Shown here piece by piece: positions 17,289-54,285 of a stretch of DNA of 64,000 nt; the stretch's first letter is position 1, and every line of letters starts with the position of its first letter. Position numbers and translations under genes: made by a program. Under the pieces are notes generated by a model. It made no database searches, was not told where the DNA came from, and saw only the letters and a list, made by a program, of their open reading frames with translations. Source of the stretch: Dyella sp. C11 (GTDB lineage: Bacteria; Pseudomonadota; Gammaproteobacteria; Xanthomonadales; Rhodanobacteraceae); the NCBI RefSeq assembly GCF_003121485.1, contig NZ_QAVX01000004.1, forward strand, positions 54,276 to 118,275. Reading direction: 5' to 3'.

Positions 17289-17499
17289 CGTGTCTCGTGA
17301 TGCGCGCGGCGCGGCGCGGATGAGTCATGGATAGGCATGCCGGTAGTAGAACTGATTTGGATGGCCATGTCAGGGGATGGTGTTGGACTTCGCGTGTATT
17401 CACTCGTCAGCTCCGCATCAAAGAGCGGGCCACGTGTCTCCACTTCGCGGGATTGCCGCGCAGCCTTCTGACTCCTGCGGCCTGGCCACAAGCCGCCCC

Positions 17500-17576
17500 A
17501 ACGCAGTTCGAGTTCCAGCCTTCGGCTCTTGGCTCTTGGCCTGGCTTTTGGCTTTTGGCTTTTGGCTCGTCGGGGT
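17500..17576. repeat. low-complexity CTTTTGG tandem stretch
   Basis: The words GGCTCTTGGC and GGCTTTTGGC repeat at seven- to ten-base steps, giving a short degenerate microsatellite just upstream of the multi-hairpin element. Confidence 0.6.
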
Positions 17577-17590
17577 CCCCGTATGACCGC

Positions 17591-17910
17591 GGCGTGCGGG
17601 TGGAGGACCAGCCCGCAGGGTGGCTGGCACGGATGCCAGCCAGTTTGTCGTCAGGGCAGGATGCCCTGTCGACAAACCCCGTAGCCCGCACGCGAACCTG
17701 GAGGCCGCAGGCCGGAAGGCGCGGTCATCCGGGGTGCCCTTTCTTTTGGTTACTTTTCTTTGGGCAAGCAAAGAAAAGTGACCCGGCCTCCGGCAGGAGG
17801 TCGGAAGCCCGCGGCAGGCGAGCCAGGTCGCGGCATCGGCTCAACCGAGCGAGAGAGCAAAGGCAAAGTCACTGGATTCCCGCCTTCGCGGGAATGACGG
17901 TGAGGGATAG
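17591..17910 (+). repeat. multi-hairpin dispersed element, copy A
   Basis: The element begins with an outer stem, GCGTGCGGG (17591-17599) with CCCGCACGC (17684-17692). This encloses hairpin 1 (TGGCTGGCA/TGCCAGCCA, loop CGGA, 17620-17641) and hairpin 2 (GTTTGTCG/CGACAAAC with an inner CAGGGC/GCCCTG stem and an AGGAT loop, 17642-17676). Hairpin 3 is 15 base pairs long with a GGCAAG loop (17747-17782). A conserved tail, with CCTCCGGCAGGAGG at its start, runs to a CCCGCCTTCGCGGG hairpin. A diverged copy lies at 44691-45030. It sits upstream of thrE and converges on the 3' end of parB. The frames covering it (for example 17327-18952) are not genes. Confidence 0.85.
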
Positions 17911-18000
17911 GTACGTTCTCGCCGGGATGACTGTGAGGGATAGGGATGTCTTTGCCCGGATGGGAGTGCGGGATAGAAACGTTACCGCAAGCACCCGACC
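17876..18000 (+). repeat. degenerate ~32-base tandem repeats after copy A
   Basis: The unit beginning CGGGAATGACGGTGAGGGAT (17887) is followed by decayed versions CGGGATGACTGTGAGGGAT and CGGATGGGAGTGCGGGAT at about 32-base steps. Similar decayed units follow copy B near 45010-45090. In translation they give the familiar 'IPAFAGMT' type of spurious peptide. Confidence 0.65.
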
Positions 18001-18018
18001 TTTATCCCCTTTTTGGGA

Positions 18019-18053
18019 CTCACCCCAACCCTCTCCCCGGAGGGGAGAGGGAG
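18019..18053. repeat. CCCTCTCCCC palindrome near the parB 3' end
   Basis: CTCACCCCAACCCTCTCCCC followed by GGAGGGGAGAGGG forms a strong hairpin. Read on the minus strand it follows the parB stop after a TTTCTTTTTTTCTC stretch, so it may shape the end of the parAB transcript. Confidence 0.7.
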
Positions 18054-18067
18054 AAAAAAAGAAACGC

Positions 18068-18940
18068 TTAGCGAATCTTCCCCAAAATCCCATCCAGCTC
18101 ATCATTGCTGTGATAGTGGATCACCAGCTTCCCCTTCCCACCGCGCCCCTGCGCCACTTCAACACGCGTGGCAAGGCGCTCGCCCAGCTCGCGCTCCAGC
18201 GCATCGACATTGGGGTCACGCGAGGGCGTGCTCTTGGCCTTGCCCTTGGGTTCGGTCTGCGCGCGGCGGGCCGCTTCTTCCAGCTCGCGCACGCTCCAGC
18301 CGTTGCGCGACGCTTCCAGCGCCAGGCCTTCGGCCATGCTTTCCGGCAGCGTGATCAGGCAGCGTGCGTGGCCCATCTCCAGCTTGCCTTCATCGAGCAG
18401 GCGCTTGATGGAAACCGGGAGTTCGGTAAGGCGCAGCAGGTTGGATACGGAGGCGCGCGAACGGCCCACCGCATCGGCAGCCTGCTGATGGGTAAGGGAG
18501 AAATCATCGATCAGCCGCTTGAGCGCATCGGCCTCTTCCAGCGGGGTAAGGTCCTGGCGCTGGATGTTCTCGATCAGCGCCATGGCCGGCACGGCCACTT
18601 CCGGCACGTCCTTCACCAGCACGGGCAGCTCCGAAAGCTGCGCACGTTGCGCGGCGCGCCAGCGGCGCTCGCCGGCGATCAGCTCGAACTGGTTCTTGCC
18701 GATCTCGCGCACCACCACGGGCTGGATAAGCCCCTGCGCGCGAATGGACGCGGCCAGCTCGTCGAGCGCTTCGTCGTTCCAGTGGCGGCGCGGCTGGTAT
18801 TTGCCGGGCTGGATGTGTTGGATCGGCAACGTGCGCAGCTCGCCTTCCTGTTCCAGCACCGAGGGCTTGCCGGGTTCGTCATGCCCGCCCAACAGCACGT
18901 CGAGCCCACGTCCCAGGCCCCGTTTTTTCGCAGCGGACAT
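18068..18940 (-). CDS. parB: chromosome partitioning protein ParB
   Basis: ParB binds parS sites, spreads as a CTP-dependent clamp and loads SMC. The 290-residue product has the N-terminal CTP/arginine patch ELIAGERRWRAAQRA near residue 90, IENIQRQDLTPLEEA near 125, a helix-turn-helix (THQQAADAVGRSRASVSNLLRL) near 150, and a C-terminal dimerisation domain ending LDGILGKIR. The N-terminal KKRGLGRGLDVLLG is the ParA-interacting peptide. It starts two bases after the parA stop. Two perfect parS-like palindromes are in recF, about 41 kb away. Confidence 0.96.
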   Translation of the reverse strand: MSAAKKRGLGRGLDVLLGGHDEPGKPSVLEQEGELRTLPIQHIQPGKYQPRRHWNDEALDELAASIRAQGLIQPVVVREIGKNQFELIAGERRWRAAQRAQLSELPVLVKDVPEVAVPAMALIENIQRQDLTPLEEADALKRLIDDFSLTHQQAADAVGRSRASVSNLLRLTELPVSIKRLLDEGKLEMGHARCLITLPESMAEGLALEASRNGWSVRELEEAARRAQTEPKGKAKSTPSRDPNVDALERELGERLATRVEVAQGRGGKGKLVIHYHSNDELDGILGKIR

Positions 18941-44530: not shown

Positions 44531-44571
44531 GGCCCCCTCTCCCCTTCGGGGAGAGGGTTGGGGTGAGGGGC
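44531..44571. repeat. CCCTCTCCCC palindrome, left flank of copy B
   Basis: CCCCCTCTCCCCTTCGGGGA continues to GAGGGTTGGGGTGAGGGG. The inverse arrangement stands at 45117-45158, so the pair brackets the multi-hairpin element. Confidence 0.8.
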
Positions 44572-44690
44572 CAATCTGGCCTTTCCTTTCATGACCGTGC
44601 TCCACGCGAAGGCAGGAGCGACGCGATGTGCAGCGCAGCTGCACGAGCCGTCCGCTCCGCTTTTGATTTTGATCCTGGGCCCCCTGTGCG

Positions 44691-45030
44691 GCGGTGAGGG
44701 GTGGACGATCAGGCCCCGCAGGGGTGCCTGACATGGATGTCAGGCACTTTTCGCCCGGGCAGGAGCCCGGTCGAAAAGCCCGGCCGCCCCTCACGGACTG
44801 GCTGGGCGCAGCCCAGGCAGCGCCAAGTGGGGGTGCCCTTCTCTTTGGTTACTTTCTCTTGGGCAAGCAAGAGAAAGTGACCCGGCCTCCGGCAGGAGGT
44901 CGGAAGCCCGCGGCAGGCGAGCCGGGTTGCGGAAGGACCGCAAAAGAGCCAAAGAACAAAGTCACTGGATGACCGGCCCTTCGGCCGTTGAAAAGCGCCT
45001 CCCGCCTTCGCGGGAATGACGGTGAGGGGT
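44691..45030 (+). repeat. multi-hairpin dispersed element, copy B
   Basis: Copy B has the same layout as 17591-17910. The outer stem is GTGAGGGG (44694-44701) with CCCCTCAC (44787-44794). Hairpin 1 is TGCCTGACA/TGTCAGGCA with loop TGGA (44725-44746). Hairpin 2 is CTTTTCG/CGAAAAG with inner CCGGGC/GCCCGG and loop AGGA (44747-44778). Hairpin 3 is 15 base pairs with the GGCAAG loop (44847-44882). In each stem the changes relative to copy A keep pairing. It lies between the hslU operon and the convergent DPP IV gene, where no gene is credible. Confidence 0.85.
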
Positions 45031-45116
45031 AGAGATGTCGCCGCGAGGATGCAGGTGAGGGATGGGGAGGTCATCGCAAGGATGACAGCGAACGAAAGAA
45101 ACGCTTCCGCGAGCAC

Positions 45117-45158
45117 CCACCCCTCACCCCAACCCTCTCCCCGAAGGGGAGAGGGAGC
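45117..45158. repeat. CCCTCTCCCC palindrome, right flank of copy B
   Basis: CCCCTCACCCCAACCCTCTC runs into CCCGAAGGGGAGAGGGAG, the inverse of 44531-44571. On the minus strand it follows the peptidase gene stop at 45169. Confidence 0.8.
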
Positions 45159-54266: not shown

Positions 54267-54285
54267 TCAAGCTTTTCCGAAGCGA

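Follow-up and report, generated by a model that had tools for sequence, protein, structure and literature searches.

The 64,000-nucleotide stretch of the Dyella sp. C11 genome analysed here (the window; NCBI RefSeq assembly GCF_003121485.1, contig NZ_QAVX01000004.1, forward-strand positions 54,276 to 118,275) carries two diverged copies of a multi-hairpin element on its + strand. A preliminary description of the window, made from the sequence alone, had placed them at 17591–17910 and 44691–45030, each with an outer stem, a hairpin with a CGGA or TGGA loop, a hairpin with an AGGA loop, and a 15-bp hairpin with a GGCAAG loop. Both copies are found in the sequence with this layout. The structured unit itself spans 17581–17803 in copy 1 and 44682–44902 in copy 2, and the remainder of each described interval is a tail with a CGTC palindrome. 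The plain hairpins of that description stand; it had missed a pseudoknot and a third strand in the core, about 40 copies in the genome, inverted pairs of copies elsewhere, and a link to the Rfam motif TwoAYGGAY.

The 5′ domain of copy 1 (17581–17730), which belongs to a subfamily termed A, was recognised from inverted repeats, compensated pairs, its predicted fold and an alignment of 32 copies. It comprises an outer stem (17592–17600/17685–17693), a hairpin with a CGGA loop (17621–17642), a hairpin with an AGGA loop (17643–17677), and additional hairpins beyond the outer stem. The core follows with the predicted pseudoknot strand S1a, TGCC (17735–17738), which would pair with GGCA in the loop of the core hairpin (17763–17766) and is supported by covariation of the stem S1 in other genomes. 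Next come the predicted third strand TTTCTTTT (17740–17747), assigned by the triplet code given below and parallel to the purine strand at 17770–17777, and the 15-bp core hairpin S2 (17748–17783; arms 17748–17762/17769–17783, loop 17763–17768). A 3′ hairpin with a GGCA loop (17784–17803), supported by the alignment and by pair counts, closes the unit. In copy 2, the 5′ domain (44682–44829; subfamily B, likewise supported by fold and alignment) has hairpins with TGGA and AGGA loops. It is followed by S1a, TGCC (44834–44837, pairing by covariation with the loop at 44862–44865), the predicted third strand TTCTCTTT (44839–44846, assigned by the same code and parallel to the purine strand at 44869–44876), the core hairpin S2 (44847–44882), and a 3′ hairpin with a GGCA loop (44883–44902) supported by the alignment.

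The differences between the two copies fall largely where the preliminary description had put them. The CGGA/TGGA hairpin has two compensatory pair differences (G-C to A-T and G-C to C-G), the internal mismatch of the AGGA hairpin stays in place (T/T versus C/T), and the GGCAAG hairpin has three compensatory pair differences (TTTTCTTT/AAAGAAAA versus TTTCTCTT/AAGAGAAA). In the outer stem, for which an exchange of C-G for A-T had been described, subfamilies A and B align out of register when the copies of this genome are compared. The predicted fold of each window copy is more stable than all 200 of 200 dinucleotide shuffles (z −5.37 for copy 1 and −4.21 for copy 2).

Two copies would by themselves be thin evidence, and the genome holds many more. 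A search of the whole assembly (4.73 Mb in 46 contigs) gave 51 BLAST matches, of which the 40 that were at least 100 bases long were treated as copies; the 11 dropped were ten short pieces and the second half of one split copy. Across the alignment of the 32 full-length copies, the consensus fold has 65 predicted pairs; for 18 of these, one copy or more differs at both partners. The GGA of the two large loops is invariant. Further copies thus show mostly compensated stem changes, which was the comparison proposed in the preliminary description for its claim of a selected single-strand structure, either RNA or single-stranded DNA, and the claim is borne out. The core-hairpin variants (TCTTT/AAAGA or CTCTT/AAGAG) and several of the 3′-hairpin variants occur with both 5′ subfamilies, so the copies are mosaics. 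Stems of the 3′ hairpin include CCTCC/GGAGG, CGATC/GATCG, ACTGC/GCAGT, and ACCGC/GCGGT.

Open reading frames do exist (117 amino acids across copy 1 and 174 amino acids across copy 2 on the minus strand), as they would if a conserved coding sequence on one strand explained the conservation. A shared frame is nevertheless ruled out, because the aligned copies are distinguished by one-base indels and by inserts of 23–25 bases, and the changes are paired across stems; we give a coding explanation next to no credence. The 23–25 base insert (GACGCGAAGCTAGTCCCGTGGGA-like) lies in the 5′ arm of the core in 7 of the 32 copies (L039:6737-7014, L042:9892-10169, L048, L052, L057, L064, and L065), and L060 has an insert of 68 bases. 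Such inserts would break or extend the pseudoknot.

A pseudoknot with a parallel third strand

The tract TTTCTTTT, directly 5′ of the 15-bp hairpin in copy 1, does not complement the purine arm AAAGAAAA; it matches this arm in parallel, as a Hoogsteen third strand would, with T on A-T and C on G-C. In copy 2 the two change jointly, to TTCTCTTT with AAGAGAAA. One spacer base upstream of the tract, TGCC can pair with GGCA in the hairpin loop. The order S1a, loop 1, S2a, S1b, loop 3, S2b makes the core, as read from its sequence, a predicted H-type pseudoknot with a triple helix between loop 1 and stem 2. Telomerase RNA is an H-type pseudoknot with a triple helix, and H-type triple-helix pseudoknots share this order, with loop 1 lying in the groove of S2. 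Triple-helix pseudoknots are also known in riboswitches such as SAM-V (PMC6061858) and guanidine-III (PMC5696562); unlike these, the element is not known upstream of one particular gene and is repeated up to dozens of times per genome.

The third-strand code admits the triplets T.A-T, C.G-C, and G.T-A, the last being the triplet that fits a T-A inversion in pyrimidine-motif triplexes. Triplets and pairs were counted in 55 distinct gap-free cores; cell-level statistics ignore the relatedness of copies, for which reason counts of distinct variants are also given. The code is obeyed in 437 of 440 cells, against a maximum of 395 in shuffles. With the third strand shifted by one or two positions, 207–251 of 440 cells agree, which supports the register, and an antiparallel reading gives 303. 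Each of the three exceptions is a C opposite a C-G inversion, and a further exception, G opposite G, was seen in L177. A perfect third strand is present in 116 of the 136 hairpins with an eight-nucleotide tract when the strand is chosen by S1 only. G opposite T-A inversions recurs in separate third-strand/purine-strand combinations, namely TTTGCTTT/AAATGAAA, TTGTCTTT/AATAGAAA, TTTCTGTT/AAAGATAA, TTTTGTTT/AAAATAAA (L141), and TTTGTTTT/AAATAAAA.

At the level of distinct variants, cores were collected with a finder in which the 6-bp lower stem was fixed and a purine-rich arm was required, the third strand being left free. All 17 distinct rows of third strand and purine strand together match in 83 of 136 cells (shuffle mean 65.9, maximum 82; reached by 0 of 20,000 shuffles), and the distinct rows from other genera alone match in 59 of 88 (reached by 10 of 20,000). 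The 10 of the 17 rows that have a third strand, defined as at least 5/8 matches, obey the code in 78 of 80 cells (shuffle mean 59.4; 0 of 20,000).

The two stems covary as well. Among the 55 cores, the pair cells of S1 and S2 are paired in 97.4% of cases against 81.4% after shuffling (S1 91.8%, S2 98.9%), cells with double changes number 168 against 42 in shuffles, and 13 of the 19 pairs show double changes, including all four pairs of S1. A second set for S1, obtained with a search pattern that leaves S1 free, comprised 84 cores from 80 of 117 named stretches among the matches listed. In 68 of these 84 all four S1 pairs form, and the 28 unique combinations are paired in 91 of 112 positions (shuffle mean 52.0, maximum 69). 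The lower stem, counted over unique stems, has G.T or T.G 33 times and C.A twice, from which the + strand is taken as the one that folds. At one pair position G.T is the commonest pair (33 of 55 cores), which would be easier to accommodate in RNA than in DNA. A second pseudoknot, involving the 3′ hairpin, was considered and rejected, its matches being no better than those of shuffles.

Within plain hairpins, paired changes could arise as a mutational artefact, the arms of an imperfect palindrome correcting each other during replication and so yielding compensation without selection. The parallel, mirror-type third strand, however, cannot be copied from the purine strand, and it tracks that strand cell by cell with G at T-A inversions; this disfavours mutual correction, which we consider highly improbable. 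Covariation among copies shows that the + strand is kept able to fold singly, with hairpins carrying GGA loops in the 5′ domain and then a predicted H-type pseudoknot with a parallel third strand. The pseudoknot pairing and the third-strand matching are, on these comparisons, almost certainly real and selected.

Sequence patterns have been used to catalogue natural intrastrand triplexes, and whether cells keep such triplexes is the question that these data address. Here about ten sequence variants show a third strand that changes along with the purine strand and has G at T-A inversions, a pattern that neither plain duplex pairing nor mutational correction can explain. The motifs in the ITxF database, which include PIT/TMECO (Holder 2015; PMC4666352), resemble the element in being intergenic, in having many copies, and in consisting of three successive tracts that could fold into an intrastrand triplex. 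As described there, TMECO forms a purine-motif triplex rich in G/C and lacks a pseudoknot stem, unlike the element with its pyrimidine-motif triplex, pseudoknot stem S1, and covarying third strand; neither the motif of the element nor any covariation test was found in the portions of that article available to us. The TMECO/PIT pattern CCCTCNCCC N3-6 GGGNGAGGG N3 GGGNGAGGG is absent from the core and fits, by eye, a separate sequence in the flank.

Distribution, inverted pairs and neighbouring genes

A covariance model of the hairpin alone, containing neither the third strand nor S1, was run on 370 gammaproteobacterial genomes and detected the core hairpin in 89 of them, representing 76 of 273 genera. 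Loci were fetched from 67 of the 89 genomes, and in 61 of these 67 a third strand was found with at most one triplet off, with one more recognised by eye (L141). The exact core pattern matched no viral contigs, and the 62-base core had no match in E. coli genomes. In plasmid and phage records, among the matches listed, only the core or the CGTC palindrome was matched, and none covered at least 80% of the query. No Rfam family is present in the window at the gathering threshold, nor in copy 1 at E values up to 5, which sets aside described mobile RNAs such as HEARO. We found no description of the core sequence or of this pseudoknot in the open-access literature as far as its texts were accessible, and the element looks like a widespread, undescribed structured element.

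The arrangement of cores was examined in 84 loci (83 from other genomes and L124 from this one; L128 and L157 overlap), of which 77 contain a total of 107 cores. As a control, one strand of each of 40 loci was shuffled at the mononucleotide level, and this gave no cores. Neighbouring cores within 1.5 kb are inverted head to head (−+) in 24 cases, in the same orientation (++) in 2, and in the opposite inverted order (+−) in 1. At L240 and L291, both of them Dyella loci, the best match to copy 1 (−) stands head to head with the best match to copy 2 (+), and the two diverged copies of the window are therefore probably the two halves of one ancestral unit.

These pairs would suit a non-autonomous, REPIN-like mobile element of single-stranded DNA. 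On that view the strand would fold while exposed during replication, at the fork, and a single-strand transposase supplied by the host would recognise the pseudoknot or hairpin as the end of the element; an inverted pair would be a complete element, and each window copy a solo half. Patchy occupancy would also fit: among the 19 genus genomes that have the gene, this one included, 8 carry a core at the site of copy 1, oriented alike. So would orientation against GC skew: of the 40 copies in this genome, 34 have their + strand on the strand of negative GC skew, as do 14 of 18 copies in the sampled stretches of one relative, G004. Another relative sampled in the same way, G005, shows no such bias (9 of 17). 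The Y1 transposase (PF01797) does not track copy number either, since G006 and G010 have none with 32 pattern matches each and G009 has one with no match; mobilisation by a RAYT, as in REP/REPIN systems, was rejected on the same two 32-match genomes. Moreover, the + strand pairs with what is presumed to be the lagging-strand template, and IS200/IS605 elements are not known to use the strand opposite this template. Repetitive extragenic palindromes (REP) and REPINs of the GTAG and CGTC families, as described (PMC3733652), are likewise intergenic, present in many copies, and arranged as inverted dimers. They differ in being 20–40 bp long, against about 220 nucleotides for the unit of the element, whose core has neither a GTAG tag nor a link to a Y1 transposase. 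A mobile single-stranded DNA element is, on balance, rather unlikely.

The setting of the copies between genes has a second possible explanation, in which the element is an insulator in 3′-untranslated or intergenic sequence that stops transcription, blocks its passage or stabilises mRNA 3′ ends between converging genes and has no role in trans. With neighbours oriented by a home-made gene caller, 34 copies in this genome have a called downstream neighbour, and in 27 of these cases that gene runs towards the element. Both neighbours converge in 17 of 28 copies; among intergenic gaps of 150 bp or more, the figure is 47 of 263. Mobile repeats, however, generally persist best between converging genes in any case. 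Neither window copy has a run of T after the core, and the GGA loops on one strand described below would be unnecessary for a stop. We regard an insulator role as improbable.

The GGA-loop domain and CsrA

The 5′ domain suggests a different role. Within 260 nucleotides 5′ of 100 cores, hairpin loops of the form A(N)GGA occur 74 times on the strand of the element and 6 times on the opposite strand; 47 of these cores have at least one such loop and 22 have at least two. A(N)GGA is the typical binding motif of CsrA (PMC5864184). A scan of 26 loci with Rfam gave six matches, in 4 of the loci, to TwoAYGGAY RNA (RF01731; Weinberg 2010; PMC2864571), which shares hairpins with GGA loops with the element. 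In 6 of 6 cases the match lies immediately 5′ of the core and on the same strand. They abut the core or overlap its first bases in L035 (Pseudoalteromonas), L136, L150, and L164. The other 22 loci gave no match. The published account of TwoAYGGAY, in the portion available, mentions no pseudoknot domain (PMC2864571), and the RNA is predicted, rather than demonstrated, to bind CsrA (PMC4333381). In the window copies, which fall below the Rfam score, the first loop (ACGGAT or ATGGAT) fits AYGGAY and the second is CAGGAT or CAGGAG, that is CAGGA(T/G) in place of AYGGAY. The statement of the preliminary description that similar repeats have no described function is thus nearly right, the 5′ domain of some relatives being in Rfam as an RNA of predicted CsrA binding. 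An orphan Rfam motif is hereby tied to a larger, countable and widespread element.

The reading that we favour, at a rough probability of 0.45 both for the whole and for CsrA titration as the function, is that the element is a structured RNA encoded at dispersed sites, in which the 5′ domain binds CsrA and the 3′ domain is a triple helix, and that it titrates CsrA. Activity as an RNA of some kind is likely; that it is RNA rather than single-stranded DNA, that it is transcribed, and that it binds CsrA we infer from the features above. The element would be transcribed, either by itself as a small RNA or within an untranslated region, and its GGA hairpins would bind CsrA/RsmA dimers and so reduce free CsrA. 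The triple-helix pseudoknot would form a rigid 3′ domain serving as protection against RNA decay or as the recognition site of a protein. Head-to-head units or solo halves of the element would have come to occupy tens of intergenic sites, here mostly between converging genes, and copy number would set the capacity of the sponge. CsrA sponges of the CsrB/RsmZ type likewise carry, on a single strand, several hairpin loops of the form A(N)GGA; they are encoded by few genes, whereas the element has tens of dispersed copies and its binding of CsrA is putative. The genome analysed here encodes csrA.

Several observations weigh against CsrA titration by a dispersed RNA. About half of the cores sampled lack A(N)GGA loops, and the window has no match to TwoAYGGAY at the Rfam gathering cut-off of 43 bits, the region of copy 1 (17300–18100) having none even at E values up to 5 and copy 2 having been scanned at gathering. 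CsrA is present in 82 of the 89 genomes with the core hairpin against a base rate of 324 of 370, which by subtraction, assuming that the same genomes were drawn, leaves 242 of 281 genomes without the hairpin; CsrA and the core are therefore not associated. A(N)GGA loops accompany 47 of 95 cores counted as coming with csrA and 4 of 15 counted as lacking it (p 0.16), or 41 of 85 against the same 4 of 15 when six plasmid-record loci of unchecked csrA status are removed (p 0.16). The figure for cores without csrA was at first 0 of 5 and became 4 of 15 in the larger sample, all four coming from the fragmented assembly G062, where csrA may be missed. The element can thus exist without detected CsrA. 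As to the 3′ domain, the finder gave no core with a third strand in 7 of 84 loci and in 6 of 20 loci of another set, and several weaker hairpin matches retain only part of the third strand. Finally, the replication-strand bias in this genome and in G004 suggests a process at the DNA level, for all that G005 lacks it, and inverted pairs are easier to explain at that level.

A bolder form of the RNA reading is a self-spreading RNA element, found in roughly a quarter of the sampled gammaproteobacterial genomes and beyond, with a CsrA-trapping 5′ half and a 3′ cap formed by a triple helix like those of telomerase and ENE. We consider this form doubtful. If it were true, a global regulator would be tuned by the number of copies, and sequence evolution would record selection in living cells for a triple helix, G.T-A triplets included. 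The existence of the fold in cells and the titration of CsrA by dispersed copies are now directly testable.

An indirect sign of transcription comes from a Burkholderia locus (L034:2034-2146), where the Rfam small RNA Bp1_684 has its start within the 3′ arm of the core and may be a fragment of this element. It is listed as validated by reverse transcription-PCR, with a method that used oligo(dT) priming and leaves the strand unproven (PMC3521395). G361, a genome with many cores, has 12 CsrA-like matches.

Other repeats accompany the copies. The tail of copy 1 contains a CGTC-type REP palindrome on the − strand (17873–17899), recognised from its sequence and separate from the core finding; CGTC repeats are a known kind of REP (PMC3733652). 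After the CGTC palindrome many copies have, by eye, degenerate GACGTCATCGCGAGGATGACGGTGAGGGATAG-like repeats, seen in the window tails at 17900–17960 and 45030–45100, which could place further GGA in small hairpin loops. Short tandem repeats of the TTTGGC/CTTTTGGC type precede many subfamily A copies (17520–17575 in the window), and a GTGCAGC..GCTGCAC palindrome precedes many of subfamily B. A C/G-rich palindrome flanks the elements at about 18018–18053 (−), 44534–44570 (+), and 45117–45156 (−). By eye it fits the purine-motif intrastrand triplex pattern of TMECO (CCCTCTCCCC..GGGGAGAGGG TTG GGGTGAGGG), and a second kind of triplex motif therefore flanks the element.
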